Source of the DNA: Candidatus Nanohalococcus occultus
Lineage (GTDB): Archaea; Nanohalarchaeota; Nanosalinia; Nanosalinales; Nanosalinaceae
DNA: 64,000 nucleotides
Assembly (NCBI RefSeq): GCF_029207735.1
Contig: NZ_CP104395.1
Coordinates: 310,001 to 374,000 of the forward strand
Reading direction: 5' to 3'
Shown: in pieces, positions 16,087 to 32,986 of the stretch
Position numbering within the stretch: the stretch's first letter is position 1
Layout: every line of letters starts with the position of its first letter
Made by a program: the position numbers and the translations under genes
The notes under the pieces: generated by a model
What the model was told of the DNA's origin: nothing
Databases searched by the model: none
What the model saw: only the letters and a program-made list of their open reading frames with translations

Positions 16087-16103
16087 AGCTCCTATCCTTT
16101 AAC

Positions 16104-16125
16104 CTTTCACGTCCAATTCTGAGAC
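16104..16125 (-). repeat. Very decayed CRISPR repeat fragment
   Basis: CTTTCA and AATTCTGAGAC flank a short gap, like the two ends of an array-1 repeat with its middle deleted. It lies just beyond the better-preserved fragment at 16154-16168, at the oldest end of the array. Confidence 0.35.
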
Positions 16126-16153
16126 CATTTCATTCGCGCATTAGGTACCATAA

Positions 16154-16168
16154 TCTGACTTCTGAGAC
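16154..16168 (-). repeat. Truncated terminal CRISPR repeat of array 1
   Basis: TCTGACTTCTGAGAC is identical to the last 15 bases of the array-1 repeat as read on the plus strand; the rest is lost. A 37-base spacer separates it from the first full repeat. Terminal degeneration marks the leader-distal end. Confidence 0.8.
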
Positions 16169-16205
16169 TTATTCTTCTCTTCCTTGATCTCTTGAAGGGC
16201 TTCAG

Positions 16206-18484
16206 CTTTCAATTTGTTCTTAATTTTCTGACTTCTGAGACGGAGGTGAATGAGAAGATGGTACATAGATACGTGACTTTCAATTTGTTCTTAATTTTCT
16301 GACTTCTGAGACGGTTCAAGACGTTTCTTACAGCAATATTTACAGACGCCTTTCAATTTGTTCTTAATTTTCTGACTTCTGAGACAATATCCCAGAAAAC
16401 ATCGTAACCCTCGTTGACCTCTTTCAATTTGTTCTTAATTTTCTGACTTCTGAGACCCGGTGATTTAGAGAATCGTTCCTTAAATCAAAATTCTCTTTCA
16501 ATTTGTTCTTAATTTTCTGACTTCTGAGACCAGCTAGAATGATGATGCTATAGGCAAGGATCTTTCCTTTCAATTTGTTCTTAATTTTCTGACTTCTGAG
16601 ACTCAGCGGTAATAGTTAAAGCGTTAGCTTCAAATGAACTTTCAATTTGTTCTTAATTTTCTGACTTCTGAGACGGGAATGTGGGAACTGGAAATCTACA
16701 TGACCTTCGCCTTTCAATTTGTTCTTAATTTTCTGACTTCTGAGACCCTAATGAACTACTAGGCGGAACATTCGGCATACTTTCTTTCAATTTGTTCTTA
16801 ATTTTCTGACTTCTGAGACGAATCGGCCTGTTTCCTGTGATACCTGCCAGGCTTAACTTTCAATTTGTTCTTAATTTTCTGACTTCTGAGACTCCACTTA
16901 ATATTGTCTTCCGAGCCATACTGCATTCTTTCAATTTGTTCTTAATTTTCTGACTTCTGAGACCCGGCATAATAATCGGCCAGAAGAAGCATTACTACCT
17001 TTCAATTTGTTCTTAATTTTCTGACTTCTGAGACTATGCTTTATATTCGAGTTCTGAGAATTGAAACTTGCTTTCAATTTGTTCTTAATTTTCTGACTTC
17101 TGAGACCTGACGTAACCCTCTACGATCAGAACGATACAAGCCTAGCTTTCAATTTGTTCTTAATTTTCTGACTTCTGAGACCTCTGGTTGGTTACAATTA
17201 CGTTGCCGTCCTCTCGCTTTCAATTTGTTCTTAATTTTCTGACTTCTGAGACACTCTTGAGATAAAGGATCAAAATGTATTCGGAGACTTTCAATTTGTT
17301 CTTAATTTTCTGACTTCTGAGACAGAACGGGTTTCACCGCAGTACAGACGCTCAGCCGCCTTTCAATTTGTTCTTAATTTTCTGACTTCTGAGACTTCAA
17401 GACGTCTTGAAGGAACTGTCAAAGATTCAAACGCTTTCAATTTGTTCTTAATTTTCTGACTTCTGAGACTTCATACACTTCCGATGTATTCGTGTCAGTA
17501 AATCTCTTTCAATTTGTTCTTAATTTTCTGACTTCTGAGACTCTCTTGAGACATTCCATTCAGATTTAGCAAGATCAGACTTTCAATTTGTTCTTAATTT
17601 TCTGACTTCTGAGACACCGTTGAAACTGACGGTGTAGTCCGGATCTACCGTCTTTCAATTTGTTCTTAATTTTCTGACTTCTGAGACGCTTTTGATCTCG
17701 CGGTTTTGACTTTTCAATCTGTCCTTTCAATTTGTTCTTAATTTTCTGACTTCTGAGACAGAGTGTTGAACGAACTGATTAAAGATGCGGCTATCTTTCA
17801 ATTTGTTCTTAATTTTCTGACTTCTGAGACCTCGCCTTTGATTTGATTGGTGAGTCCACTAGTGATGACTTTCAATTTGTTCTTAATTTTCTGACTTCTG
17901 AGACCGATAATTATGCCTACTATACATCTCGTACCACAGGCTTTCAATTTGTTCTTAATTTTCTGACTTCTGAGACTTGAGGCCACGGCTTACGACAGCC
18001 AAGGGAACCCTTCACTTTCAATTTGTTCTTAATTTTCTGACTTCTGAGACCTGAGAGAATACCAACTACCAGACCTATAAGCAAAGACTTTCAATTTGTT
18101 CTTAATTTTCTGACTTCTGAGACCAGTCCGCATCCCCCAGACAAGCCTATTGATGCGACTTTCAATTTGTTCTTAATTTTCTGACTTCTGAGACCCCCGG
18201 GTTCTGGGTCGATACGTCCACGATCTCCGGGCTTTCAATTTGTTCTTAATTTTCTGACTTCTGAGACTGCCTATATCGGATTCATTGATGCTTTTGATCG
18301 TAGCTTTCAATTTGTTCTTAATTTTCTGACTTCTGAGACGCTACCCCCCATCGTATGTAGTCCATGCTGCTTGGACTTTCAATTTGTTCTTAATTTTCTG
18401 ACTTCTGAGACATTTCAGTCAGATGAAGAAGGCTGGACAAATCCAGGACTTTCAATTTGTTCTTAATTTTCTGACTTCTGAGAC
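16206..18484 (-). CRISPR. CRISPR array 1 (32 full repeats, type I-D locus)
   Basis: 32 full repeats of 36 bases separated by 31 spacers of 35-39 bases. On the plus strand the repeat begins CTTTCAATTTGTTCTTAATT and ends TTCTGACTTCTGAGAC; on the transcribed minus strand it begins GTCTCAGAAGTCAG and ends AAATTGAAAG, the usual archaeal 3' handle. First full repeat is at 16206, last at 18449-18484. The leader lies at the right (18485-18588), directly after cas2, so new spacers enter at the right and the left end decays. One spacer (18340-18375) is identical to one in array 2. crRNAs would be cut by Cas6 and loaded into the Cas10d/Csc1/Csc2 complex. Confidence 0.98.
18340..18375 (-). other. Spacer shared with array 2
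   Basis: This 36-base spacer (begins GCTACCCCCCATCGTATG, ends GCTGCTTGGA) is identical to the spacer at 22933-22968. It is the second spacer from the leader in array 1 and fourth in array 2. Confidence 0.95.
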
Positions 18485-18588
18485 CGGTGGTTGATATAGT
18501 GTTATATTGGTTATTAACGTTTTTGAGTTCTTGATTTTGGATTTCTTTTTCGTGGAGAGGGGTTGTACAGTTGACTTTTATAGGTCGG
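18485..18588 (-). promoter_or_regulatory. Leader of CRISPR array 1
   Basis: This AT-rich region between the first repeat and cas2 shares blocks with the leader of array 2: GGTGGT next to the repeat, CTTGATTTT, TTTCGTGGA, then GAGGG-TGTAC-GTT-ACTT. On the minus strand CCTATAAAAG (18575-18584) is a good TATA box, so the array transcript would start about 60 bases before the first repeat. Spacer-integration signals are expected in the conserved blocks. Confidence 0.8.
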
Positions 18589-18855
18589 TTAAACTACTGT
18601 TGATTGTTCGTCGTCTGTGGTCTTGCCAATTTCTTCGATGTTGTCGACGTTGGTAGGTGTGAGTGGATATATTCGGATATGTTCTTCGCTGGAGATTATT
18701 TCTTTCAGCTTGTGTTTGAGTTCGGTGTACTGTGTTTTAGATAGGTCGACTTCGAAGGCGGAGTACTGTTTCCAGGCACCGTAGCTTTTCAGTGCTTTAC
18801 GGGTTTCTTTGCGGGATTTGTCGTCGCTGATGTCGTAGATTATGATGTATCTCAT
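18589..18855 (-). CDS. cas2: CRISPR adaptation endonuclease Cas2
   Basis: 88 residues of ferredoxin-like fold. The start MRYIIIYDIS places the conserved Asp at residue 8, and SAFEVDLSKTQY plus IRIYPLTP match Cas2 strands. Cas2 forms the bridge of the Cas1-Cas2 integrase. Its ATG overlaps the HEPN gene's stop (ATGA, 18852-18855), so it is the last gene of an MNT-HEPN-cas2 operon and not adjacent to cas1. The C-terminal tail after residue 75 is unusual and acidic. Confidence 0.93.
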   Translation of the reverse strand: MRYIIIYDISDDKSRKETRKALKSYGAWKQYSAFEVDLSKTQYTELKHKLKEIISSEEHIRIYPLTPTNVDNIEEIGKTTDDEQSTVV

Positions 18856-19295
18856 TTTTGGTCTTGTATCCGGGGTTTTAGCTGGTTTAGAAGCTCTTGG
18901 TAGAGTTGTCTTATGTTTTTGGCTTCTTCTGTGGTTGCGATTTCTCCTCTGTAGGATATGTCGTTTCTTAGCTTACGGTATCGGTTTAAAGTGTTTGCGT
19001 TTACAAGGTCTATTTCTAGTTTGTCTATGGCGTAGGCGATGATTGCTTCGTGGCTGTAGGGTTTGAATCCTTCGGCGGCCATAAGGCTTTGTACAAGCAT
19101 CTTACATGATTCGTATACGTTTTCCAGGTAATCGGTTGCGGTCTCGTCTTCTATACCCAGTCTTTCCATGGTCTCAAATTTTGATTCAGAACGTCTTAGG
19201 AGGTTGGATGCCTGAGCAGGGTCTTTTCTGTTATCTCTTACCTTGCCGCGTTCAATGTAGTCTTGGAATCTGTCGATTTCGTGAGGTCTATTCAT
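18852..19295 (-). CDS. HEPN-domain protein upstream of cas2
   Basis: 147 residues, mainly helical, with the HEPN signature region RYRKLRNDISYRG near residues 105-117. HEPN domains are often RNases with an R-x4-H motif; here R110 is followed by N-D-I-S-Y115, so His is replaced by Tyr and catalysis is doubtful. It overlaps both the nucleotidyltransferase gene (19293-19297) and cas2. HEPN plus MNT pairs are a common archaeal toxin-antitoxin type in which the MNT modifies and silences the HEPN. The tie to cas2 is unusual. Confidence 0.8.
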   Translation of the reverse strand: MNRPHEIDRFQDYIERGKVRDNRKDPAQASNLLRRSESKFETMERLGIEDETATDYLENVYESCKMLVQSLMAAEGFKPYSHEAIIAYAIDKLEIDLVNANTLNRYRKLRNDISYRGEIATTEEAKNIRQLYQELLNQLKPRIQDQK

Positions 19296-19822
19296 TACGA
19301 GGTCACATCCAGGTATCCGGCCAATACCATTCCATTTGCCAGCGTGTTTTTGAACTCTTCATTTTCGTTCCCTAGATCTTCAATCCGTGTGAGCTGGATT
19401 TTTCTTCCAAGCTCTTTTTCAAAACTCGTTAGATCCAATCTTTTTTCGCGTCCGCCGATCACCGCTATATCTATATCGCTTTCAGCCCTGTCTCTCCCGT
19501 CCAAATAAGATCCGAATAACACCACAGCCTCAGGTTTCAGCTCTTTTTCCAGGAACTCTGAAACTTTTGACTGCTCTAGCTTCTCGAGATTAAGTACTTT
19601 CTTCGCCTTCCTAAATCTCTGTTCTGTTGGATAATAGAAAGTCATCTTCGATTCCTTGTTACTTTCCAGAAAACCTTTCTCCTCCAATCCGTTTAAAGCA
19701 GACCTGGTGCTGGAATAAGGCACCTCAATCTTCTTCGATAAGCCACGAACATGGATTTCTTCAGGCATTCTCACAAAATAATCCAACACCTCTCTCTCAG
19801 TTTTGGTTAGATCTTTGATCAT
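19295..19822 (-). CDS. Winged-helix plus minimal nucleotidyltransferase (MNT)
   Basis: 175 residues. Residues 1-75 form a winged helix (LTKTEREVLDYFVRMPEEIHV, then SSTRSALNGLEEKGFLE), suggesting DNA binding. Residues 95-125 hold the nucleotidyltransferase motif LFGSYLDGRDRAESDIDIAV, with G104-S105 and the D116-x-D118 metal pair. In the HEPN/MNT systems the MNT adenylylates or polyadenylylates the HEPN toxin. Here it probably also acts as autoregulator, since an 18-base palindrome covers its start codon. First gene of the MNT-HEPN-cas2 operon. Confidence 0.85.
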   Translation of the reverse strand: MIKDLTKTEREVLDYFVRMPEEIHVRGLSKKIEVPYSSTRSALNGLEEKGFLESNKESKMTFYYPTEQRFRKAKKVLNLEKLEQSKVSEFLEKELKPEAVVLFGSYLDGRDRAESDIDIAVIGGREKRLDLTSFEKELGRKIQLTRIEDLGNENEEFKNTLANGMVLAGYLDVTS

Positions 19823-19831
19823 ATGATCAAA
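19814..19831. promoter_or_regulatory. Palindromic operator over the MNT start codon
   Basis: TTTGATCATATGATCAAA is a perfect 18-base palindrome that contains the start codon of the winged-helix/MNT gene (19820-19822). A second, imperfect palindrome (TAATCACATGGTTA, 19836-19849) lies just upstream and matches 10 of 14 positions to its own complement. A TATA-like TTATTTAA on the minus strand is at about 19847-19855. The layout suits repression by the N-terminal winged helix. Confidence 0.6.
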
Positions 19832-19860
19832 ATTCTAATCACATGGTTAAATAATTGTCC

Positions 19861-19879
19861 ATTTTCTGACTTCTGAGAC
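19861..19879 (-). repeat. Truncated terminal CRISPR repeat of array 2
   Basis: ATTTTCTGACTTCTGAGAC matches the last 19 bases of the array-2 repeat. It marks the leader-distal end; the first full repeat follows after a 35-base spacer at 19915. Confidence 0.85.
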
Positions 19880-20244
19880 CCGCATTTGCTCGATTGTATG
19901 TTGGCATTGCTTAAGTTTCAATTTGTATTCAATTTTCTGACTTCTGAGACTAAACTACATTCAGAAGATTACAGCGTGGAGAAAATGGCTGTTTCAATTT
20001 GTATTCAATTTTCTGACTTCTGAGACTCTATCTGTTCAGCTATTTCCCCTCCGATTTCTTCCGTTTCAATTTGTATTCAATTTTCTGACTTCTGAGACAA
20101 CTTTCAGCAACCGGATTTCTATGTTCGTCCTTCCAGTTTCAATTTGTATTCAATTTTCTGACTTCTGAGACGCTGAGATGGCAGAGCATCTCGAAACGCT
20201 TCCTTTTGGTTTCAATTTGTATTCAATTTTCTGACTTCTGAGAC

Positions 20245-20354
20245 ACTGTGCCTGTGGCCGGATCGTAACTTGCTTCAGGGCGTTTCAATTTGTATTCAAT
20301 TTTCTGACTTCTGAGACACTGTGCCTGTGGCCGGATCGTAACTTGCTTCAGGGC
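20245..20354 (-). repeat. Tandem duplicated spacer unit in array 2
   Basis: The same 37-base spacer (begins ACTGTGCCTGTGGCCGG) occurs twice in a row with one repeat between, as from slippage or unequal recombination between repeats. Confidence 0.95.
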
Positions 20355-22932
20355 GTTTCAATTTGTATTCAATTTTCTGACTTCTGAGACTTTCATGGAT
20401 TCCATCTCACAGGCGCACTGCGTTCCGGTTTCAATTTGTATTCAATTTTCTGACTTCTGAGACTCCTCAGTCATTGTGATTTATCAGCCTCATTGCTCGG
20501 TTTCAATTTGTATTCAATTTTCTGACTTCTGAGACGCAGCTCGGAGTATCTCCCTGTTCAATCACGTTTTTTGTTTCAATTTGTATTCAATTTTCTGACT
20601 TCTGAGACGAACTACGAGGAAGCGAAACAGAATTTGAAGGAGAGTTTCAATTTGTATTCAATTTTCTGACTTCTGAGACACACCGGAGACCATATCATCA
20701 TCCGGCATTAGCTGCGTTTCAATTTGTATTCAATTTTCTGACTTCTGAGACCTCATAGCCTTTTTTTAAGTCTGATTTTTTAACCTCGTTTCAATTTGTA
20801 TTCAATTTTCTGACTTCTGAGACTTGAGATGGAAAACCCGGAAACAGGGGAAAATGTGTCTGCGTTTCAATTTGTATTCAATTTTCTGACTTCTGAGACC
20901 AAGCGGATCTTTAGTTGCAGGTTTTCCACTGATTAGTTTCAATTTGTATTCAATTTTCTGACTTCTGAGACGTTGCCTATTATTTCCATGTGAGTGTATT
21001 CGCCGGGTTTCAATTTGTATTCAATTTTCTGACTTCTGAGACCTTCAGCTGCTCTGAGAAGCCAACCCATTAGGCATCGTTTCAATTTGTATTCAATTTT
21101 CTGACTTCTGAGACCTCCTGATGCCGTGAATGTTGTAGTAGTGCCTTTCTGTTTCAATTTGTATTCAATTTTCTGACTTCTGAGACACTTTTGTAGAAGA
21201 AGTCTGTCTAGTGGCTATAATGTTTCAATTTGTATTCAATTTTCTGACTTCTGAGACATTCAGGTGCTACTGGAACGAACGTGTTTGCACCTTGTTTCAA
21301 TTTGTATTCAATTTTCTGACTTCTGAGACAAAACGAGTCCCTTTTTTCAGGGACTTTTCTTTTACGTTTCAATTTGTATTCAATTTTCTGACTTCTGAGA
21401 CCTACTGCTTCAGTCCCTTCCTCAACAGTATCTTTGTTTCAATTTGTATTCAATTTTCTGACTTCTGAGACGACTAGGTGTGGTAATGTCAACACTCATG
21501 AGCTTTTGTTTCAATTTGTATTCAATTTTCTGACTTCTGAGACCTGGGGTCATGGGAGACGGAGCAGATATTCTGATTATGGTTTCAATTTGTATTCAAT
21601 TTTCTGACTTCTGAGACTTCGTAGAGGAGAATCCACGTAAACAGGCGAGCGGCGAGTGTTTCAATTTGTATTCAATTTTCTGACTTCTGAGACCCTTCAG
21701 TCTCACTATTTATCGAAGGCTTAAACTTGGTTTCAATTTGTATTCAATTTTCTGACTTCTGAGACATTACTAGGAACGAGTTCCGTACTCAGCTAGGTTA
21801 CGTTTCAATTTGTATTCAATTTTCTGACTTCTGAGACTTTCGAGTTAGCGCACTAGGCGCCTTGCTCAAGGTCGTTGTTTCAATTTGTATTCAATTTTCT
21901 GACTTCTGAGACGTCAGGGCTTTCTACTATTACGTTTTGTTCGTTTTCGTTTCAATTTGTATTCAATTTTCTGACTTCTGAGACCCCTGAAGGAAGCCCT
22001 GGAAAGTGGACAGGACACAGGTTTCAATTTGTATTCAATTTTCTGACTTCTGAGACCAGTTAGCTCTAGCTGCGTCGTTTTTTTCTCTTTACCGTTTCAA
22101 TTTGTATTCAATTTTCTGACTTCTGAGACACTATATGATGTTGCTCTAAACAAGCTCGGTCTTTTTGTTTCAATTTGTATTCAATTTTCTGACTTCTGAG
22201 ACATAGTATTATTTTCTCACCTCTTTCATCGGTTCATTATGTTTCAATTTGTATTCAATTTTCTGACTTCTGAGACTCTCCAGCTTCATCTGGGAGCAAT
22301 ACATCCACCAACGTTTCAATTTGTATTCAATTTTCTGACTTCTGAGACCGGATGATGTTCAAGCGTTTAACACTCGCAGAGTCTTGTTTCAATTTGTATT
22401 CAATTTTCTGACTTCTGAGACAGCCTGGCTGAGCATCCAATGTTCTGATTGAGAGATGGTTTCAATTTGTATTCAATTTTCTGACTTCTGAGACAGAATA
22501 ATCGACTTTCTTCATCGCAGAGTTAGTCAAGTTTCAATTTGTATTCAATTTTCTGACTTCTGAGACGTTGGAACATACAGTCAGCCTCAGATAACTAGCT
22601 TTGTTTCAATTTGTATTCAATTTTCTGACTTCTGAGACCTAGGCCGAGAACTTCTAATTCTCTAAAAATCTCTGCTAGTTTCAATTTGTATTCAATTTTC
22701 TGACTTCTGAGACCTTTCGTCTCAAATTCTCCGAGTTTTGTCATAGTCCAGTTTCAATTTGTATTCAATTTTCTGACTTCTGAGACAAGAGGAGAAGCTA
22801 TTAGCTCCCAGACCATTATCTCGGTTTCAATTTGTATTCAATTTTCTGACTTCTGAGACTAGTTCTGACCGCACCATGAACACTTTCTCATGATTGGTTT
22901 CAATTTGTATTCAATTTTCTGACTTCTGAGAC

Positions 22933-22968
22933 GCTACCCCCCATCGTATGTAGTCCATGCTGCTTGGA
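22933..22968 (-). other. Spacer shared with array 1
   Basis: Identical to 18340-18375 over all 36 bases. Its position near the leader in both arrays suggests recent acquisition by each or transfer between arrays. Confidence 0.95.
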
Positions 22969-23225
22969 GTTTCAATTTGTATTCAATTTTCTGACTTCTG
23001 AGACATCACATCGTTGGTCTGAGTACGGTATTCCTCCAATGAGTTTCAATTTGTATTCAATTTTCTGACTTCTGAGACCCGATGTTCATCGGTTCTTCCC
23101 TCCGGCTAGAGCCATCAGTTTCAATTTGTATTCAATTTTCTGACTTCTGAGACACGGTACAACTTTTTGTTCACCGACCGCTATTCTATGTTTCAATTTG
23201 TATTCAATTTTCTGACTTCTGAGAC

Positions 23226-23334
23226 TGGTGGTAAATCATGTTCTATATGCGCTCTTATTTGTTCTGGTTGCTTGATTTTTGAGAGGTGTTTCGTGGATGA
23301 GGGCTGTACGGTTTACTTATATACGTCCTTGAAT
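23226..23334 (-). promoter_or_regulatory. Leader of CRISPR array 2
   Basis: Related to the array-1 leader (same order of GGTGGT, CTTGATTTT, TTTCGTGGA and GAGGG-TGTAC blocks). On the minus strand ACGTATATAAGT (23315-23326) is a TATA-like box overlapping the region just after the cas1 stop. Confidence 0.8.
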
Positions 23335-24348
23335 TCAGCGGTTGAAAACCAGGGGGTGGTATTTCTGGTTTTCGCCTGTAATCACTTTCCTCAAGAGTAT
23401 GGACTGTAATCGGATTGCTTTTCTGCGTGTTACTTGGTACTCGAATTTTGGGTGTCGGAACTTTTCGTTCATGTAGTCTTCCCATTTTTCGAGGTATGTT
23501 GAGAATTTTTCGTCTTTCAGGTGGTTGTCTTTACGGAAGTCTTCGTGGGTGAGTGTCTGCCGGTTGATTAGTCGCATTGTGAATGTGTCGGCGAATAGGG
23601 GTCGGAACTCCTCCATCAGATCCAGTGCCAGGCTTGGTCGACCGTGTCTGTCGACATGCATAACTCCGAGGAACGGATCCAAGTTGTACTGTCTCAGTCC
23701 GCTCAAGACCTCGTTTTTCAGAAAGGTGTAGGTCAGTGATAGCAGCGAGTTTATGTGATCCTCTGGAGGCCTTCTCGTCCGTTTTTCGAAAGTCCAGCCG
23801 TCTCGAAGTGTTTGATCGATTTTTTGGAAGTAGTAGTCCGAGGACTCGCCTTCCCGCGCCCGCAACGTGTCTTTCCCTGGTTTTTCGTTTTTCAGTGTGT
23901 CAAGTACTTTTCCGATTTTTTCGGTTTCTTTCACTCCTTTACGCATCAAGATGGTTTTCATGTTCCGAGCTTTCGCACGTGTTATCTCATGGACTATGTC
24001 TCGTTCTTTTTCTTCAGAGAGCTGGTACTGTTTACGTCTGACTCGGGCGATCGTATTCTTTTCTGGTAGAAAGCTTCCTTCGTAGTTGCCGTGGATTGTG
24101 AAGTAGTTGACGGTGATCTCTTTCCTGTTACAGTTCTTGAAGAAAGGTGTAGTCAAGTTAACTCCGCCAAACACATTGATTGTATCGACCTGCTCGACAG
24201 GAAAACTCTGCAAAACCTCTCCTTTTTCTCTGACCTCGATACGGCCTTCATCAAGCCCTATCTGGGTTCCCTGCTTTTTAACATAGATAACTGACTGGTC
24301 CATCAGGCCTTCCGAGGCCTTTATTTTCTGCCCGTCTTTCTCACTCAT
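23335..24348 (-). CDS. cas1: CRISPR integrase Cas1
   Basis: 337 residues. Metal-binding active-site residues are visible: Glu in RAREGESSDYYF (E166), His in GVMHVDRHGRPSL (H231) and the acidic DLMEEFRP motif (D243-E246). Cas1 is the catalytic subunit of spacer integration. Its start overlaps the cas4 stop (ATGA at 24345-24348). It is followed by a leader and array 2, not by cas2, which lies about 4.5 kb further on behind the whole array. Confidence 0.96.
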   Translation of the reverse strand: MSEKDGQKIKASEGLMDQSVIYVKKQGTQIGLDEGRIEVREKGEVLQSFPVEQVDTINVFGGVNLTTPFFKNCNRKEITVNYFTIHGNYEGSFLPEKNTIARVRRKQYQLSEEKERDIVHEITRAKARNMKTILMRKGVKETEKIGKVLDTLKNEKPGKDTLRAREGESSDYYFQKIDQTLRDGWTFEKRTRRPPEDHINSLLSLTYTFLKNEVLSGLRQYNLDPFLGVMHVDRHGRPSLALDLMEEFRPLFADTFTMRLINRQTLTHEDFRKDNHLKDEKFSTYLEKWEDYMNEKFRHPKFEYQVTRRKAIRLQSILLRKVITGENQKYHPLVFNR

Positions 24349-24923
24349 TTTCCGTCCACCAGGTTTCCCTGACCGTCTTCCCCAAGCTTTTCAGTCTCCT
24401 CCGGCATACAGTAGCTCCTCGCGCTACAGCCCTTACATTTGTTCCTGTTATCAATTAGCGGTGGAGGATTATCCGGGTCGAGGTTTTGGATTTTCTGTAT
24501 TATCTGTTTGAGTTTTTCGATATGGCTTTTTGTTATCTGTATTCTGTGGCGTTCGTCGGTTCCGTGAAGGTAGAGTGTGCCTGTTCGTACTCTTTGGCCT
24601 GTGTTTTCTTCGAGTAGGAGACAGTATGCGGTTAATTGGATTACATCGTTTTGCCGGTAGTAATCTCCTCTTTTTCTTTCCACAGGGATATTATTCTTTG
24701 ACTCCATGATGTCGATCTTGCCGTGAATTCCAAGGTCTTCGCTTTCAAGGTATATTTCTTCCGTCCAGCCGCCGCGTTCTCCTTTATGCTCGTGTTTCAG
24801 CTTTCCATCTGTGAGAAAATAGTTGTTTCCGGTGGTATCGTAGAATTTCTGATACCAGAGCCTGCGCGGACAGTAGAGGTACTGGTTCAAACTGTTTACA
24901 TTTATCAGGTCTTTGTCTTCCAT
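24345..24923 (-). CDS. cas4: CRISPR-associated exonuclease Cas4
   Basis: 192 residues. The RecB-type nuclease core has GKIDI (D71), VERK (E82, K84) and QLTAYCLLLEE (Q96). The 4Fe-4S cluster ligands are C18 (QYLYCPR) and the C-terminal C163, C166, C172 (NKCKGCSARSYC). Cas4 trims prespacers and fixes PAM choice and orientation. The gene begins 13 bases after cas3' and overlaps cas1, in one long operon. Confidence 0.93.
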   Translation of the reverse strand: MEDKDLINVNSLNQYLYCPRRLWYQKFYDTTGNNYFLTDGKLKHEHKGERGGWTEEIYLESEDLGIHGKIDIMESKNNIPVERKRGDYYRQNDVIQLTAYCLLLEENTGQRVRTGTLYLHGTDERHRIQITKSHIEKLKQIIQKIQNLDPDNPPPLIDNRNKCKGCSARSYCMPEETEKLGEDGQGNLVDGK

Positions 24924-24936
24924 AGGTAGTAGTCCT

Positions 24937-26955
24937 CTAGAACTTGTTATCGTTTATTCTACGCGCCAGATAGAATGCGTTCAGCCCGAAGGCCGTACTC
25001 ATTTCTGATAAGTCTGTAGGTGTTTCAGTATAGTAAAGCATCAGGTAGTCTGAGGTATCGTAGATGGACTGAATCTTGCTTGGGAAGCCTGCTGTAGACT
25101 TGACAGCCATCTTCCTGTCACGTGTATAATTATTCAGTTTTCCGATCGACTCTATTTCAGGATCTGTCTGGAAAGCAATACTGTCCAGGATTTCAGGTCC
25201 TTGTATAGGATTTGTATTATTCTTCCGTAGGTGCTGTATAAACTTCCCGCCGTTGAAAGGTCTTACTCTAACCTTTCTTGGCTCTTCTCTTTTTCCATGA
25301 TATCTACAGTAGCCTTCGACATAATCTTTCAATCCGTCGAACTCCTTCTTATCGTCGTCTGGGATTATGTCGCGAAGCTCTTCTCTCTTCAGGAACTCTA
25401 TTTTGCCCCATGTTAGTAGGTGTCGAAGGTTGTATGCTTTCATTTCTTTTTCCTTTTCATCGTAGAGTAAGGCCTGAAAGTTTTCTCCTCGGTACGTTTC
25501 CAGTGATCTCAAGGTCTCTAGGAGTCGAGGATTTTCGTTAATAAATTCTATTTCATTTCCTAACTCCTTGTCAGATAGTTTGTGTTCATTTGTGGAGAAA
25601 AGGTTTTTGATAAGCTGGAAGGATCTTTTCTGGAATTCTGGTGTCTGTGAGTCTGGAAGTTTTTCGCTTACATTTAAGGTGTGGAAAAGCCATTCCTTGA
25701 CAGAGTATGTTCGAGTAAACGATTCAGGTCTCTCATTTTCATCAAGTTTCTCTTCTACAATAGTTTCCAACTCTTCACGAGTTAAGCTGTCTTTTTTCTC
25801 TGTTTCAATAAGTTCTTTTTCTGTAAAGCAAAGTATTTCGTGTTCTGTCTGTTTTTCTGGGTTTCTGAGGCGTCCAATTCTCTGTATGAATGTTGGTGCA
25901 TCGAACGCTGAGAAGATCAGGTTTTCCACATCGAAGTCAACTCCTACTTCTACTGCTGAGTTACTTACGAGGACATCGAAGTTTTCCAGTTTTTCTCCGA
26001 TATTTTCTCTGTGGAATCCGTCTATCCGCTCTACCTGTAAATCAAGTTTTTCTTCAAGGTAGCTGTAAACGTCATCTACTTCCTTCAGTCCATCAAGCAT
26101 CACAACAGTTCTGCCAGAATTACAAATCTCCAGGATTCTTTCCTGTATCTCTTCCTTTTCTTCACTTATTATTTCTTGACTGGTCTTAAACAGTTCTGCG
26201 TCTCTCAGTTCTAATTCAGCTTCCGGCATTATCTTGGTCGAGTCTTCAAACTCTAGATTGGACGTATCGGAATCTACGATTTCAACGCTGTCAAAAACAT
26301 TTCTTAGTGGTTTAGTTGCTTTTTCATCTGGTGTTGCTGATAGAAAAACTCCTTTCTGTATTTTAGAGGCAGGTTCTTTCATCAAGTAGGATACAGCGTA
26401 CAGCAGATCGTTTCTCTGTTTGACCTCGGCCATGTGAAACTCGTCTACCACCACTATATCGCTACCATTTATCAGAGATTCAAGATTTTGGCCCTGAGGC
26501 CCATAAAGATGCTTTAGAATGAGAATAAGGGTGTCGGGATTAGTGAAAAGAATTGAAGGTTCGTTTTCTAAGAAATCCAGTTCTCGTATTATATGCGCTG
26601 CTGCTTTTCCGTTGCTGTCTGTTCCTATCTCTTTTTTCTTCTCTGAAACAGATTCGCGGGTTAGCTTATCATATTTGAATTCTTTATCTGAAAAATAGTC
26701 ATTGTGAAACTTTCTAGCGGCGTCAACCTGGTCCTCTACTAGTGCGTTTGTTGGGTATACTGCTATTGCGGAAAGGTTATCTTCCAGCACCGGTTTCATC
26801 CAGGAAAAAGTCTTCCCTGAGCCTGTGGGAGATGTGTTGAATAGTATTTTCTCTCCGTCTTCCCGAATTTTTTCCTGTAGCTCCAGTTGATGGCTGTATG
26901 GATTGATTTCAGGGAGATAATTGGCCTGTTTTTGTTCAATATGGAGGCCTGACAA
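24937..26955 (-). CDS. cas3: Cas3' helicase (no HD domain), type I-D
   Basis: 672 residues, superfamily 2 helicase. Walker A TSPTGSGKT (41-49), DEFH box (171-174), motif III LSATP (205-209), and motif VI QRIGRLRNPE. There is no N-terminal HD nuclease; in type I-D that domain sits in Cas10d, which matches this locus. The helicase unwinds target DNA after Cascade binding. It starts 2 bases after the csc1 stop. Confidence 0.93.
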   Translation of the reverse strand: MSGLHIEQKQANYLPEINPYSHQLELQEKIREDGEKILFNTSPTGSGKTFSWMKPVLEDNLSAIAVYPTNALVEDQVDAARKFHNDYFSDKEFKYDKLTRESVSEKKKEIGTDSNGKAAAHIIRELDFLENEPSILFTNPDTLILILKHLYGPQGQNLESLINGSDIVVVDEFHMAEVKQRNDLLYAVSYLMKEPASKIQKGVFLSATPDEKATKPLRNVFDSVEIVDSDTSNLEFEDSTKIMPEAELELRDAELFKTSQEIISEEKEEIQERILEICNSGRTVVMLDGLKEVDDVYSYLEEKLDLQVERIDGFHRENIGEKLENFDVLVSNSAVEVGVDFDVENLIFSAFDAPTFIQRIGRLRNPEKQTEHEILCFTEKELIETEKKDSLTREELETIVEEKLDENERPESFTRTYSVKEWLFHTLNVSEKLPDSQTPEFQKRSFQLIKNLFSTNEHKLSDKELGNEIEFINENPRLLETLRSLETYRGENFQALLYDEKEKEMKAYNLRHLLTWGKIEFLKREELRDIIPDDDKKEFDGLKDYVEGYCRYHGKREEPRKVRVRPFNGGKFIQHLRKNNTNPIQGPEILDSIAFQTDPEIESIGKLNNYTRDRKMAVKSTAGFPSKIQSIYDTSDYLMLYYTETPTDLSEMSTAFGLNAFYLARRINDNKF

Positions 26956-26957
26956 GT

Positions 26958-27647
26958 CTATCTTTTCTGTTTCAGGAATTCCAAGTCACCTGGCAGAACA
27001 GCCTTTTCGTTTTCTCCATAGTTTAGTTCGTAGTAATTTCCTTTGTATCTGGCCTGAAGGATCAAAGGCGCAGGACGTATCTTGCGGGTCAAAAGATCGC
27101 CTTTAGGTTCAAGGCCTGTATCATAGGCGCCGATCGGATGACTGCTTGTAAACTCTCCGTTTTTCTTCTCTATCTCTATTTCCTCTATTTCCAGACTACA
27201 TTTACCCCGTTTCTTACCCAGTCGGAAATATTTTGGAAGTTCGATGTCGTCTTCCGCTATTAGGAAGGTCTCGAATCTGTTTCCGCTTGTGACAACTTTC
27301 TCTGTACCTACTTTTGGAAAGTTTTTGTCTGCTACCTCGTTTTCCGGATCCTGAGCGGACAGATTTCTTTCAGCATACTTGTTCCCTGAAACTGTTGTCA
27401 AGAGATTTGTGTATTTGGTCTCGTTTACAGGTCTTGCTGGAGCCACATAGATGTCTTTTTGGTCTTCTGTGTCTTCTGTGTATGTGGGTTTTCCTAGTGT
27501 GTCTGCGTAACGGGATTTTGAGATTCCGAGCGCATAGTAGAGAGAGGTATTGGAGATGTAACTCCCTGTCTCTACCAGTCTACCTATCTCTCTTGCTGCA
27601 CCTCTTACTATGCCTTCAGTCCTGATTTCAAGTCTGTAAGCCTTCAA
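26958..27647 (-). CDS. csc1: Csc1 (type I-D Cas5)
   Basis: 229 residues. The start MKAYRLEIRTEGIVRGAARE and the later TRKIRPAPLILQARYKG fit the RAMP-fold Cas5 of I-D systems. It would hold the 5' handle of the crRNA. The assignment rests on the RAMP-like pattern plus its place between csc2 and cas3'. Overlaps the csc2 stop by ATGA (27644-27647). Confidence 0.87.
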   Translation of the reverse strand: MKAYRLEIRTEGIVRGAAREIGRLVETGSYISNTSLYYALGISKSRYADTLGKPTYTEDTEDQKDIYVAPARPVNETKYTNLLTTVSGNKYAERNLSAQDPENEVADKNFPKVGTEKVVTSGNRFETFLIAEDDIELPKYFRLGKKRGKCSLEIEEIEIEKKNGEFTSSHPIGAYDTGLEPKGDLLTRKIRPAPLILQARYKGNYYELNYGENEKAVLPGDLEFLKQKR

Positions 27648-28573
27648 CTTTCAACACTTTCCACGAACTCTCGAGATTTTTCCTCCTGGCTTTCCAGATA
27701 ATCTTCAATGTTTTCCCTGACCTCATCCAGAACATCCTCCAAGCTGTCAACTTCCTCACAGTCAAGCCTATCTTCTTCAACAAGCTGATCGAAGGCCTGC
27801 TTCACTGTTTCCTGTACTGTCTCAGAGTCTAGTGTGTCCTGCTCGACAGCTTCTTCTCCAAGTAGTTCGATTGTCTTCTTGGTTACTGCGAGGTTGGAAG
27901 GACCTTCTTCATCTCCTGTGTAAATTCCGAGGATGTGGTTTTTGGTTCGTCCCTGTCGTGAACTTGTTGCGCCGTACCGCTTGTTCTTCATCGTGGTTGA
28001 TAGGAAGAAGGCGACTTCCTCAGGAGTAGCGTCCTTCAAGGTTATGACCGAAGGGAACATTGTTCCAGGTTGGACAAAGTCTGGTTCTCTGATGCCTGTC
28101 ATGGCTTCTTCTCCAGATGTTTCCTGGCTGTAGTTATCGCCCGGAGCGTTCTGGAACTTCTCCTCGACAACTTTCTTCGCATCTCGGAGACTGTAGGCTG
28201 TGTCGTACATGACGCGTGAGGTGATTGAAATGTTTCTGTCGCTGCTGGATGCTGCAGATCCGTACATGACGCATTCAGGGCATTCCTGGCACATCTCGTT
28301 GACATCCATTGTGCATTCGACATCTTCCAGCATTTCTCGTTGCATGGACTTTGCGAACCTGCGGTCGCTTCCACTCTGCTTCCTCATGAACATGAGAACA
28401 GGATTGTATTCGTCATCCTCGAGTCCTATGGTTCCAAGGTCTGCGTCCTGGCCGTTTGTCGTGAATACTGCGTTGCTTTCCAGTTCTCGCAGCACCAGGA
28501 TTGAGACATAGTTGTTTTCTGGTTTGTTTGTAAGTTCTTCTACCGTACCGTTGTCAAGTTGTTCTAAGCTCAT
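27644..28573 (-). CDS. csc2: Csc2 (type I-D Cas7 backbone subunit)
   Basis: 309 residues. A zinc-binding set C87, C95, C98, C101 (in NEMCQECPECVMYGSAA) is characteristic of Csc2. VFTTNGQD near residue 36 and the thumb-like TMKNKRYGATSSRQGRTKNH motif are as in the family. Several copies would form the crRNA-binding backbone. The last 70 residues are an acidic coiled tail, a likely halophile addition. Confidence 0.93.
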   Translation of the reverse strand: MSLEQLDNGTVEELTNKPENNYVSILVLRELESNAVFTTNGQDADLGTIGLEDDEYNPVLMFMRKQSGSDRRFAKSMQREMLEDVECTMDVNEMCQECPECVMYGSAASSSDRNISITSRVMYDTAYSLRDAKKVVEEKFQNAPGDNYSQETSGEEAMTGIREPDFVQPGTMFPSVITLKDATPEEVAFFLSTTMKNKRYGATSSRQGRTKNHILGIYTGDEEGPSNLAVTKKTIELLGEEAVEQDTLDSETVQETVKQAFDQLVEEDRLDCEEVDSLEDVLDEVRENIEDYLESQEEKSREFVESVES

Positions 28574-28601
28574 CTAATTTACACCTTTGAATCTGATAAC
28601 A

Positions 28602-31439
28602 TCAGTTTCCACTATTTTTCCTCTTCAAAATGCCTGAATAGTAGGCATCCGCAAAGTTGTTGGATTTGCGTTTCATCTTTCCAGGCTTGCCGTCGCATAG
28701 ACTGTAGAAAATCTCATCCACGAAGAAATCAGCGAATTCATCTATCCGTTCGCCGAAACCTTTCTCCGTGTCCAAGTCGTCTTTCGACTTGCTGAAAGTT
28801 TGGTCTGTTCTCTCAAGTCCTTTCCTGAGACGACCGGATACTAGATTCTTGTAGTCCTCTTTCCCGAGATCGTTATCCGTCTTAGTCACAGCTTTCACTG
28901 CTTCCCGGAAAGGTCTTTCAACGGCGTATGCCTTGTAGGATTTTGGAATAGCGATTCTGTAACCTAGTTCTGATAAGTGGTCTAATTTATTTTCCGTCAT
29001 AGTATCACCTAAAATTTTATCGACAACCTCAGCCTCTCTGAGATGGTAACCTGCGTTTTCAGGACCTTGATCTCTTACAATCATCTTCAACAGCTTTGAA
29101 CCCGGAAGCTCGTTATTCCTACATACGCGTAGATACTTAGCAAACAAACTATCTTTGCGTTCAACAGCGTATCCAAGCCTGATCAGGCTGGCAAACGCTT
29201 TCAGTTTTGCTTCCAGCTCCGAACTGTAATCTAAACCTCCGTATTCTTCATCAAGTTTCTGGATGCTGACTGTCTCACCTGTGACGCTGAGAACCTGGCT
29301 CTTACCACAGTCAATCTTCACCATTTCATCGAAGTTCGAACCATCTGTGTTCACAGGTTTCTCACTAATAACAGCTCTTGAACCCGAAATCTGTGCGGTA
29401 AGAAGGCCTGTAAATATTGAGAGGAAATGAACTGAGGTATCGTTTAATGAGCTTCCACTGTTGCTTCGCTGATATTCAAGGATTTGTACTCCGAAGTTGT
29501 TCTTGAATTCTCCCATAGTCGAGTGGAGTACATCCCATCCGTCATCGTCAGCCATGTTTCCAAAGTAGTCATCTGATTCCGTAAATTCGTCATCGATAAC
29601 TTTCTCAGCTATTCTCTCAAGCTGTAGTTTCCCGTTTCCAAGCTCCTGAACAATGTTTTCGGCCAGACTCCAGCTCTCTGGTGTGTAAAAATAGTCTGGG
29701 ATCAAGTGGAAGAAGATCCGGTAATCCGATGATGGGCTTCCTTCAATATTTCTCAGACCGAACTCTACCTGACACGGCTTACAGAGGATCTGGCTCTCTG
29801 GCTTTGAAGCTCCAAGATTCTTGAAGTTACTGAATCCTGACTGAAGGCCTGTATCGCTTTTGTTTGTCTCCATATCGCCTTTGTTTCCAAAAGTCGATCT
29901 ATTACAGATGTTGCAGACTTTGCTCCGGCTTTTGCCAGTGTACTCATCGAAAACATCTGGCTGTTCAATTTTATGATCTGTAGAGTTCAGTACGATGAGA
30001 TCGGAAAGGTAGGCCTTGATTTCTTTCTGGAACTCTCCCATAAGTTCTTCTTCAAGCTCCTGCTCGTCGATTTTATCCAGCAGTCTCTCGGAAAGGTTTT
30101 CGGCAAGCTTTACTGGTTCAAAATCTTCGACTTCTTTCCCATCTATCTCTGAGTTAAGGAATTCCTGGGCTATTGGAAGTGAGTAGTTCCACTTTCCTCC
30201 AGTAGTAAGCTCACTGTCTTGTTCATCGCTGATGTCCTGAAGTCTGGAAGCCGAGTCCTCTGCGTTAAAGATTTCGCCTAGAACTTCAAGACCGTCATTT
30301 AAACCCATTTCTTCGCTAAGTATTTCTTTGTAAAAAGTAGCCACTATACGCCCATAGCCGATAACTTTTCTTCCTTCCTCTATTTCTATACCTGAGATCT
30401 CTGAAGCAGTCTGAATGTCATTTATCATCGCATCTGTGGCGCTGTTATCACTTTCTGCGGCTCCGATACCTTTTACAACGAATCCCTTTGCTATGGTTTC
30501 AAGACCTGCGTAAAAGTAGTATTCTGGGCTTGCGTTGTATGATCCGAGCCGACCGCCTGTAATAGAATCGGAGAGTTTTACCGGGTTGGAGAAGTTATCA
30601 TGTGCTTCCTTGATATCATCCATGAAATGTCCGAGAATTTCTTTGAAGACTTCTTCATCAAGTTCAATTTCTTCTTTCTCTTTCTCGGTTATGTATAGGC
30701 ATCCATCACTGTAAATTGTTAGTAAAGGCCTTTCTTTTTCTTTCATGTACTGGGAGATCGACCGATTGATGATGTTGGTTAAGACACCTTTCTCTTCTCT
30801 TAACTGGTGGTGTCTGAACTCCAAATCTGTGAATTTTTCCTCCAGAACCTTTTGGCTTCTGCTACTTGCTGCGTCTTCTGGAGTTGGGCTTGAGGCTATG
30901 CTGTCAGCTAAACGGACAAAAGGCGACAGATTTCCGAACTCGGGTGAACGAGCAATTTTCGCATTCCACGATTTGTGAGAGGCCTTTACAGCAGAATAAT
31001 AGGCTTCAGTGTTCAGATCACAGAACTCTTCCAGCCCAGAGTCTTCAACTATCTCAGTTACTAACCTCTTATCTACGTTGAACTCTTCCTCTGCGCCATC
31101 TACAGTCCTTAACTTGTGGATATCATGGACAACGAAAAGTGCGATACTTTTACGAAGTTTTGAATCAGAAAAATCTCTGTCAAGTTCTGTAAGCGTTCTC
31201 TGAAGCTGTGAAAGAAAAGTAACGCCGTTTCTTATGTGATTAAGCAATGACTGGTCGGTTTTCCCAAAATCTACAGATTTAGATGGTTTATAACCCCATT
31301 TCATTTTCCGTAACTTAGGATCTATGATGCTATAGTATTCTTTCAGTATATCAGAAGATTTTTCCTCCTCATATTCAAGAGTTACTTCCATAGCTTGTTC
31401 AACAAGATCTTCCATCCCAAATTCTTCTTCGTTGCTCAT
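28602..31439 (-). CDS. cas10d: Cas10d (type I-D large subunit with HD nuclease)
   Basis: 945 residues. The N-terminal HD domain shows H68 (LLNHIRNG), H105-D106 (VVHDIHK), H155 (ASHKSWN) and D179 (RLADSIASS), the nuclease that cuts target DNA in I-D systems in partnership with the separate Cas3' helicase. A zinc finger lies mid-protein (CNICNRS ... CKPCQVEFG). The polymerase-like GGDD motif of type III Cas10 is not seen, as expected for I-D. This gene and csc2 identify the system subtype. Confidence 0.93.
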   Translation of the reverse strand: MSNEEEFGMEDLVEQAMEVTLEYEEEKSSDILKEYYSIIDPKLRKMKWGYKPSKSVDFGKTDQSLLNHIRNGVTFLSQLQRTLTELDRDFSDSKLRKSIALFVVHDIHKLRTVDGAEEEFNVDKRLVTEIVEDSGLEEFCDLNTEAYYSAVKASHKSWNAKIARSPEFGNLSPFVRLADSIASSPTPEDAASSRSQKVLEEKFTDLEFRHHQLREEKGVLTNIINRSISQYMKEKERPLLTIYSDGCLYITEKEKEEIELDEEVFKEILGHFMDDIKEAHDNFSNPVKLSDSITGGRLGSYNASPEYYFYAGLETIAKGFVVKGIGAAESDNSATDAMINDIQTASEISGIEIEEGRKVIGYGRIVATFYKEILSEEMGLNDGLEVLGEIFNAEDSASRLQDISDEQDSELTTGGKWNYSLPIAQEFLNSEIDGKEVEDFEPVKLAENLSERLLDKIDEQELEEELMGEFQKEIKAYLSDLIVLNSTDHKIEQPDVFDEYTGKSRSKVCNICNRSTFGNKGDMETNKSDTGLQSGFSNFKNLGASKPESQILCKPCQVEFGLRNIEGSPSSDYRIFFHLIPDYFYTPESWSLAENIVQELGNGKLQLERIAEKVIDDEFTESDDYFGNMADDDGWDVLHSTMGEFKNNFGVQILEYQRSNSGSSLNDTSVHFLSIFTGLLTAQISGSRAVISEKPVNTDGSNFDEMVKIDCGKSQVLSVTGETVSIQKLDEEYGGLDYSSELEAKLKAFASLIRLGYAVERKDSLFAKYLRVCRNNELPGSKLLKMIVRDQGPENAGYHLREAEVVDKILGDTMTENKLDHLSELGYRIAIPKSYKAYAVERPFREAVKAVTKTDNDLGKEDYKNLVSGRLRKGLERTDQTFSKSKDDLDTEKGFGERIDEFADFFVDEIFYSLCDGKPGKMKRKSNNFADAYYSGILKRKNSGN

Positions 31440-31440
31440 T

Positions 31441-32250
31441 TCAGTATCGTACCTCTGTGTAAGTATTACCTAGTCCTCGGGCTGTGTGGCTGCCGAGGCC
31501 TGCGTGTTTGGCGTACCGTGTTAGTATTGCGAGTTTTTTCTTGAGTTGGTCGGATGCGTTTTTGAAGCCGTATTCTGTTTTGCCTGTGAATCCGAAGGCT
31601 TTGATCTGTTTTTTGGATTCTCCGTCTTGTTTGCGTGTCACGACGGTGTTTGCGGTATCATGGGAGTATGATTTTTCTATAACGTGTTTTTTCAGTTCTT
31701 CTGTTTCTAGCTTGAACTCCATGTTTTCAGGTGCGTTCCTGTTCCACGAGTTTTCCAGTGCTTTGAAAACGGCCTCTCGGTGAGGGAACATCTCAGTTAC
31801 TTCAGAGTCTTTGTACTGTATTGAGGCAGGTGAAAGGAAGTGGAAGTAAAGTCCGTTAGGGGTTTTCTTTTCCATAAGCTCTTTCCAGGTGATTTCTTCC
31901 GTGTTCATGCCTGTTATTTCGAAGCTTTCTCCGGCGATATCTAGTTTTTGTCCTTTGAGAATGAGGTCGTTGAACAGTTCCTGGAATCCTTCGGAGTCGA
32001 TAAGGTTGATGAAGAAACTGTATTCGGTATCGGAGAAAACGCGTTTCCTGTTTCTGTCTTTCCTGTCAAACTCTCCGTTAAGCGGGCTGACGGTCATCTC
32101 TGCGTTTTCAGATCTGTGTATCTTTTCACTGAGTTCGGGGTTCGTTTTCCGTATGCTACTGAGTGCGGCAGAGTAGAGGAGGTGGCCGGTTGAGTGAGGT
32201 ATCAACGTATTATTCTCCGGCCTACATCTGATCTCTATTGAATTAATCAC
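31441..32250 (-). CDS. cas6: CRISPR RNA endonuclease Cas6
   Basis: 269 residues. Two RAMP ferredoxin-like domains end in the glycine-rich loop region KHAGLGSHTARGLGNTYTEV, the hallmark of Cas6. His residues near the N-terminus (IPHSTGHLL) are candidates for the active site. Cas6 cuts the array transcript inside each repeat. First gene of the cas operon; it starts 1 base before cas10d's ATG. Repeat ends of both arrays (ATTGAAA) fit Cas6 products. Confidence 0.9.
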   Translation of the reverse strand: MINSIEIRCRPENNTLIPHSTGHLLYSAALSSIRKTNPELSEKIHRSENAEMTVSPLNGEFDRKDRNRKRVFSDTEYSFFINLIDSEGFQELFNDLILKGQKLDIAGESFEITGMNTEEITWKELMEKKTPNGLYFHFLSPASIQYKDSEVTEMFPHREAVFKALENSWNRNAPENMEFKLETEELKKHVIEKSYSHDTANTVVTRKQDGESKKQIKAFGFTGKTEYGFKNASDQLKKKLAILTRYAKHAGLGSHTARGLGNTYTEVRY

Positions 32251-32307: not shown

Positions 32308-32347
32308 GGTGGTATTTTTAGAAAAATTGCTGTTTAATTGGGAAGTA

Positions 32348-32986
32348 ATGTCTAAGAGCTTTATTTTTAACATGGGTTATGATACGTCTCACGTACACTC
32401 AGTTCTTTCCAAGGAAAGTCTGGAGCCGGGTTCCTCGGTGATTCTGCTGGTGCCGCCCGGCAAAACAGGGTCTCAAAGCAGCGATAAAAGACAGGAAAAT
32501 GCTATACATGATATTTCGAATTACCTTTCCAGTCTGGACTTGAATGTAGAGCTGGAGACCATGCGTCTCAAAGGAGTATTTGATCAGGATCTCTTAGCCC
32601 TCAACCGTTTTCTATCTGGATTGGAGGGCGAGGTATGTTTAAGTCTCTCTGGAGGTTCTAGAGATATACTTATACCACTGACACTGGCAGCCTCATATAA
32701 TTCCCAGAATATTGAGAAAACGTACTTCAGAAGTGATCTGAATTCCGGTCTTAATACTTTCGAACTGCCCGATTCTCTTTTTGGCGCTGATTCTGTTGAA
32801 AAAGAGCTTCTTGAACTAGCTGCCGGAGAGCCGAAAACCGCCGATCAGTTGTCTCAACGCAAAAATACTTCCAAGTCTACGGTTTATCGTAAACTAAGAG
32901 GCCTCAAGGAAAATGGTTTAATCGAGAAAACTGAGGAAGGCTACCAACCGACGCTTCTAGGACAAATACTTATTGAGAAACTGTAA
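32348..32986 (+). CDS. csa3: Csa3-like CARF/winged-helix transcription regulator
   Basis: 212 residues from ATG 32348; upstream in-frame codons from 32309 would overlap the promoter and are not counted. The N-terminal CARF domain (FIFNMGYDTSHVHSVL, VILLVPPG, then LSLSGGSRDILIPLTLAAS) binds cyclic oligonucleotides in relatives. A C-terminal winged helix (TADQLSQRKNTSKSTVYRKL) binds DNA. Csa3 proteins switch cas or adaptation genes. It is divergent from the cas operon and shares its promoter region. Confidence 0.88.
   Translation: MSKSFIFNMGYDTSHVHSVLSKESLEPGSSVILLVPPGKTGSQSSDKRQENAIHDISNYLSSLDLNVELETMRLKGVFDQDLLALNRFLSGLEGEVCLSLSGGSRDILIPLTLAASYNSQNIEKTYFRSDLNSGLNTFELPDSLFGADSVEKELLELAAGEPKTADQLSQRKNTSKSTVYRKLRGLKENGLIEKTEEGYQPTLLGQILIEKL

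Follow-up and report, generated by a model that had tools for sequence, protein, structure and literature searches.

Why should the cas2 gene of a type I-D CRISPR-Cas locus lie behind two overlapping genes of toxin-antitoxin (TA) appearance, 4.5 kb from cas1? This question is raised by Candidatus Nanohalococcus occultus SVXNc, with a genome of 948,351 bp, of which one stretch of 64,000 nucleotides (here called the window) was analysed. It has been reported that the CRISPR locus sits in a horizontally acquired island, and cas2 was figured together with "two hypothetical genes" between both arrays (PMC10266531). The gene layout is thus already published (PMC10266531), and the identity of the two hypothetical genes is new. 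The reading developed below, to which we give a probability of about 0.62 as a whole, is that a mobile, self-regulated wHTH-MNT/HEPN module would have come to stand before cas2, at the trailer of a duplicated leader-array, in an ordinary I-D locus.

Layout of the split locus and its arrays

The order on the minus strand is cas1, leader 2, array 2, a truncated repeat, wHTH-MNT, HEPN, cas2, leader 1 and array 1. The features of the window are as follows.

16206..18484, minus strand: CRISPR array 1, 32 repeats GTCTCAGAAGTCAGAAAATTAAGAACAAATTGAAAG and 31 spacers
18485..18588, minus strand: leader 1, immediately behind cas2
18589..18855, minus strand: cas2 (type I-D), 88 aa, from profile matches
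18852..19295, minus strand: HEPN gene, 147 aa, putative toxin, from profile matches and conserved residues
19295..19822, minus strand: wHTH-MNT gene (SVXNc_0337 or 0338), 175 aa, putative antitoxin and autorepressor, from profile matches and GSX10DXD
19814..19831, minus strand: palindrome of 18 bp without mismatch, TTTGATCATATGATCAAA, with the MNT start codon at its centre; predicted operator for autorepression
19846..19857, minus strand: TATA-like box CAATTATTTAAC, between -35 and -24 relative to the MNT ATG, scoring 11.5
19861..19879, minus strand: last repeat of array 2, truncated to its first 19 nt, adjoining the MNT promoter upstream
19915..23225, minus strand: CRISPR array 2, 46 repeats GTCTCAGAAGTCAGAAAATTGAATACAAATTGAAAC, 45 spacers and one more ahead of the truncated repeat
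23226..23334, minus strand: leader 2, homologous to leader 1, immediately behind cas1
23335..24348, minus strand: cas1 (type I-D), from profile matches
24345..32250, minus strand: cas4, cas3', csc1, csc2, csc3/cas10d and cas6 (I-D effector and processing), from profile matches
32309..32986, plus strand: csa3, gene of a CARF-HTH regulator, divergent from cas6, an orientation shared with the I-D loci of haloarchaea

The type I-D gene set is complete in the window according to profile matches (cas10d/csc3, csc2, csc1, cas3', cas6, cas4, cas1 and cas2), and cas1 is the final gene of the series csa3 // cas6-cas10d-csc2-csc1-cas3'-cas4-cas1. The wHTH-MNT gene ends at 19295, where the HEPN gene starts (1-base overlap, TAATG), and the HEPN gene ends at 18852, within cas2, which starts at 18855 (4-base overlap, ATGA). 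Both overlaps had been given correctly in the preliminary description of this DNA, as had the position of cas1 about 4.5 kb away behind the whole of array 2; leader 2 (about 110 bp) also intervenes.

The two leaders share 73% identity over 137 nt, repeat included, and the homology of leader 2 to leader 1 begins 7 bp past the cas1 stop codon, which points to a duplication of the leader-array. In the simplest account of the split, the duplicated leader-array would have been placed behind cas1 and the TA-like module would have entered at its trailer before cas2; the order of these two events cannot be told. All 46 repeats of array 2 are perfect and 36 nt long. Near its trailer end a repeat-spacer unit is duplicated, spacers 40 and 41 (about 20240-20350) being identical. 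Array 1 ends (about 16100-16170) in two remnants of degenerate repeats, GTCTCAGAAGTCAGATTATGG and GTCTCAGAATTGG.

One 36-nt spacer, TCCAAGCAGCATGGACTACATACGATGGGGGGTAGC, is common to both arrays, as spacer 2 of array 1 (about 18370) and spacer 4 of array 2 (about 22965), and the repeats that flank it are array-specific in each case. The best explanation of the shared spacer is that one prespacer was integrated twice, near each leader; a recombination restricted to the spacer is the alternative. The same spacer near the leader of both arrays suggests that both were fed by adaptation, and therefore that adaptation was possible in the split locus or in its direct forerunner. Unique spacer targets were sought in phages and none was found. 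Protospacers of array 2 spacer 39 were present on plasmids of two haloarchaea, Haloplanus sp. GDY1 and Natrinema versiforme, with 2 and 3 mismatches, and both (L135 and L136, at 601-645) were preceded by GTT, which was taken as the PAM for this system on the basis of this one spacer, the one with protospacers found. GTT agrees with GTN, the motif known for type I-D.

The wHTH-MNT/HEPN pair and its predicted promoter

The first gene of the pair encodes a Polbeta/NTP_transf_2 domain with an N-terminal TrmB/MarR-like winged helix. Among PDB profiles, its nucleotidyltransferase part matched MntA antitoxins and its N-terminus matched winged-helix regulators such as BlaI/MecI; PADLOC PDC-M05A, a profile without curated cut-off, was matched at E 2.9e-10, and the match to NCBIfam MntA_antitoxin was below the family cut-off. 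The GSX10DXD motif is kept (G104-S105...D116-x-D118) and is invariant in 12 members. The second gene matched PADLOC PDC-M05B, likewise without curated cut-off, at E 1.2e-5, and HEPN/UPF0332 profiles of the PDB at E 1e-5 to 1e-4; no Pfam HEPN match up to E 1 and no NCBIfam family was obtained, and its single-sequence AlphaFold model was poor (pLDDT 46). It is the single such HEPN found in this genome. The canonical RNase motif RX4HXY is absent, and R107-x2-R110-N111-x3-Y115 (Rx2RNx3Y), with no His in the motif, stands in its place. Residues Y61, G76, H82, R107, R110 and Y115 are invariant across 11 members, H82 lying outside Rx2RNx3Y. By these profile matches the MNT-HEPN identity proposed earlier is real, and on its sequence the pair is assigned to an archaeal MNT-HEPN family resembling PADLOC PDC-M05, with a weak match.

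Pairs of class II HEPN/MNT without RX4H but with the conserved Tyr have been described, their activity being unproven (PMC7641770), and an antiviral role for PDC-M05 still awaits confirmation (PMC12988326). It has also been stated by Anantharaman et al. that toxicity is possible for HEPNs of MNT pairs even where the motif is missing (PMC3710099). In our reading the HEPN protein would be a growth inhibitor restrained by MNT, probably via AMP transfer to Tyr115.

The TATA-like box before the MNT gene scores 11.5, against 8.5 at the 99.99th percentile of the window, a value slightly flattered since the matrix was built from 33 sites of the wHTH-MNT family, the window's own included. The 18-bp palindrome occurs only once in the genome, also when 3 mismatches are tolerated. 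The start regions of the 33 family members have TTTATATAA at -32 to -24, CAnnTGT at -23 to -17 and AACATATGTTA around the ATG. Palindromes centred on the start codon, with each arm 6 or longer, were found in 6/33 members and in none of 169 control starts from the same loci. With arms of at least 4 the counts were 11/33 and 0/169, and for any palindrome near the start with arms of at least 6 they were 17/33 and 9/169; each of these two comparisons gave a Fisher p of about 1e-9, which is optimistic because the family members are related. In archaeal wHTH-MNT genes the start-codon palindromes are predicted to be operators for autoregulation, and the mRNAs to be leaderless. The arms in the window are GATCAT/ATGATC, whereas the usual arms of the family are TAACAT/ATGTTA; the arms have changed yet the symmetry is perfect, as expected of an operator under selection. 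As a separate observation, archaeal wHTH-MNT genes have in common a TATA box near -28 and inverted repeats that surround the start codon (consensus near TAACATATGTTA), and these were seen, for example, upstream of MNT genes in L083, L096, L102, L119, L122 and others.

The strong TATA box together with the start-codon palindrome suggests a leaderless, self-repressed promoter. A promoter of cas2 itself was not detected, the best TATA score being 2.7 in the 60 nt upstream and 3.0 when 300 nt are considered. Judged from the sequence, cas2 is probably co-expressed with the MNT-HEPN pair. The three genes would be transcribed as one leaderless mRNA from at or near the MNT ATG, and the winged helix of MNT would bind the palindrome and repress the operon. 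It had been proposed that the pair controls or supplies Cas2 activity. The part concerning supply stands, in that the tight three-gene operon and the lack of a promoter signal before cas2 make it probable that Cas2 supply follows the self-regulated promoter of the pair. Read-through from array 2 could be another source of expression of the operon. The intact open frames and the perfect operator indicate that the pair is not decaying.

The third-position GC skew was +0.35 for MNT, -0.55 for HEPN and -0.67 for cas2, and -0.23 to +0.19 for the long genes of the window. All three values are outside the range of the long genes, and the jump between MNT and HEPN/cas2 may come from different histories or from strand effects; the contrast between MNT and HEPN implies that the two may not have arrived together.

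Repression of this promoter might instead be CreTA-like: a crRNA would direct the I-D effector against the MNT promoter, and the operon would be freed once the effector is lost. The first 11 nt of array 1 spacer 28 match exactly the MNT promoter just upstream of the ATG (19816-19826), where about 0.003 such 11-nt sites would be expected in so short a stretch, and the truncated repeat lies just upstream of the promoter. However, the match came from 77 spacers compared with three genes, and shuffled spacers reach equal maxima; outside the seed the agreement (22/38) is close to what chance would give; and the CreTA toxin is an RNA, whereas both SVXNc partners are proteins. The site is preceded by ATT and not by the GTT of the only protospacers found in this system, those of array 2 spacer 39. 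We consider such regulation extremely doubtful and set it aside because of this ATT flank where GTT is expected.

Conservation of the arrangement and the role of Cas2

Relatives of Cas1d were gathered from plasmids and genomes, and their loci were scanned with Cas1, Cas2, MNT and HEPN profiles. In all 50 I-D loci having both genes (about 48 distinct), cas2 was located no more than about 30 bp behind cas1, and in almost every locus where an array was found, it began some 100-210 bp after cas2. The earlier premise that cas1 and cas2 are normally neighbours is thus confirmed, and the split in SVXNc is more than a chance departure. An MNT or HEPN gene was beside cas1-cas2 in 0/50 of these loci, the sole MNT match being weak and about 9 kb off in one locus.

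The wHTH-MNT gene was present in 91 of the 394 archaeal genomes searched, and cas2 was present in 14 of the 80 wHTH-MNT-positive archaeal genomes searched, the window's own included. No MNT-cas2 adjacency was found among the matches listed for the other 13 archaeal genomes with both, in which the two genes were separated by at least about 21 kb; some weaker MNT matches stand outside the list, so a rare second case is possible. The comparison leaves out E09 (GCA_012927765) and Nanopetraeus SG9, two other nanohaloarchaea reported with CRISPR. The search for MNT-HEPN-cas2 adjacency in relatives that the preliminary description had suggested therefore gave a negative answer, and a conserved MNT-HEPN-cas2 unit was rejected, none occurring beyond the window in the 50 I-D loci and 80 wHTH-MNT genomes, among the matches listed. 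Neither the MNT-HEPN pair (sought in plasmids and IMG/VR) nor Cas1d (sought in IMG/VR) gave a match.

The MNT-HEPN family stands alone in three genomes (G007, G009 and G014) and across archaea. In other nanohaloarchaea the pair is either alone or heads unrelated genes, with a likewise tight junction (-4 or 0 bp). The genes following HEPN there encode an alpha/beta hydrolase (-4 bp), a 154-aa unknown protein (-4 bp) and a NUDIX-like protein (0 bp). A gene for a 359-aa protein (0 bp) is a further unrelated neighbour of HEPN outside SVXNc.

The Cas2 protein matches Pfam Cas2 (E 1e-21) and PADLOC Cas2d (E 3e-29) and retains D8. It has lost the CxxC that is present in all 47 I-D Cas2 relatives compared, being the sole exception among 48, and its mean identity to relatives is 0.42, against 0.54 (SD 0.04) for pairs of similar Cas1 distance. 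This divergence and the CxxC loss may reflect a long lineage branch, relaxed constraint or a changed partner, and could mean new constraints. Origin of cas2 from a foreign lineage was also considered and rejected, as the protein is an I-D Cas2d, 36-45% identical to I-D Cas2s; its position in the tree was unresolved.

These properties of Cas2, together with translational coupling and a common promoter, speak for a reading in which MNT or HEPN would sense cell state or infection and raise, lower or nucleotidylate Cas2, thereby switching spacer uptake. We regard such dedicated control as improbable. The arrangement occurs in one genome only, the pair heads unrelated genes elsewhere, and the usual I-D regulator csa3 is in its normal place. 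Dedicated control is unsupported, given that no second case of this coupling was found and that unrelated genes elsewhere are coupled to the pair just as closely; it would also be unnecessary in our reading. The suggested new regulatory layer of adaptation is consequently not supported as an evolved system, the adjacency being unconserved and the pair abutting unrelated genes elsewhere. It is more doubtful still, and in our view quite improbable, that Cas2 is a functional third member of the TA operon, with the operator setting Cas2 supply and uptake opening only once the antitoxin runs low or is titrated away, as in the course of an infection, which would couple adaptation to dormancy. If this were true, the loss of CxxC would reflect the new setting.

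An alternative already proposed is that the pair protects the CRISPR-Cas locus by addiction. In this case deletion of the region would remove the antitoxin first, and a cas2 gene sharing the operon would make loss of an adaptation gene costly. A similar help in maintenance was proposed for vapBC pairs amid Sulfolobales cas cassettes (PMC4390879). The antitoxin-first gene order suits a TA, the locus lies in an acquired island (PMC10266531), and CRISPR is rare in the lineage, cas2 being present in 2 of the 28 genomes of the phylum that were searched. However, the HEPN protein is a putative toxin only and lacks the known RNase motif, the pair does not recur at CRISPR loci, and the authors of a TA census saw no strong link between TA and CRISPR (PMC2701414). 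A role of the pair in addiction is possible, but unlikely as the explanation of the arrangement; in the mobile-module reading any aid in keeping CRISPR would be a side effect of linkage.

Altogether, the arrangement has the appearance of a single rearrangement through which Cas2 happened to come under new control, and not of a widespread new CRISPR regulator. Cas2 would be a passenger, its level following the MNT feedback loop and not the cas6-cas1 operon.

Comparison with known systems

The locus offers a clear natural case in which the core adaptation genes are on separate promoters, one apparently that of a self-regulated TA-like module. As SVXNc is kept in binary culture and its RNA-seq data are public (PMC10266531), it can be used for testing the need for Cas1/Cas2 co-expression in adaptation. 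Furthermore, the family-wide start-codon palindromes predict self-regulation of the very common, little-studied wHTH-MNT module.

Haloarchaeal and methanogen I-D loci, such as that of the Natribaculum luteum plasmid (NZ_CP095398), have the same csa3 // cas6-cas10d-csc2-csc1-cas3'-cas4-cas1 order, a Cas1 57-62% identical to that of SVXNc, and a leader directly after the last cas gene, as in SVXNc. In contrast to SVXNc, their cas2 follows straight after cas1, with a single leader-array behind cas2.

The pair itself resembles the type VII TA HepT/MntA of Shewanella (SO_3166/SO_3165; PMC7641770) in that the MNT gene is first and overlaps the HEPN gene, GSX10DXD is present in MNT, and a conserved Tyr lies near a conserved Arg in HEPN. 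Unlike class I of that system, the SVXNc HEPN lacks RX4HXY and the SVXNc MNT carries an N-terminal winged helix. In HepT/MntA, AMP transfer from MNT neutralises HEPN toxicity, as may also be the case for the SVXNc pair. Class II HEPN/MNT (PMC7641770) and PADLOC PDC-M05 (PMC12988326) are likewise archaeal dyads of a nucleotidyltransferase and a HEPN protein in which RX4H is absent and the conserved Tyr is present, as in the SVXNc pair. However, class II is defined by a PF05168 HEPN, to which the SVXNc HEPN gave no match up to E 1, and the SVXNc operon is extended by cas2.

Two systems combine a TA with a CRISPR-Cas locus in a comparable way. In CreTA (PMC9458426, PMC8501985), a toxin-antitoxin likewise lies beside cas genes and degenerate repeats, whereas SVXNc has a protein pair, with no RNA toxin and no PAM-supported guide to its promoter. 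The vapBC genes in Sulfolobales cas cassettes (PMC4390879) likewise form a mobile TA pair lodged inside a CRISPR-Cas locus; in SVXNc the pair is instead MNT-HEPN, and cas2 overlaps the toxin-like gene and apparently shares its promoter.
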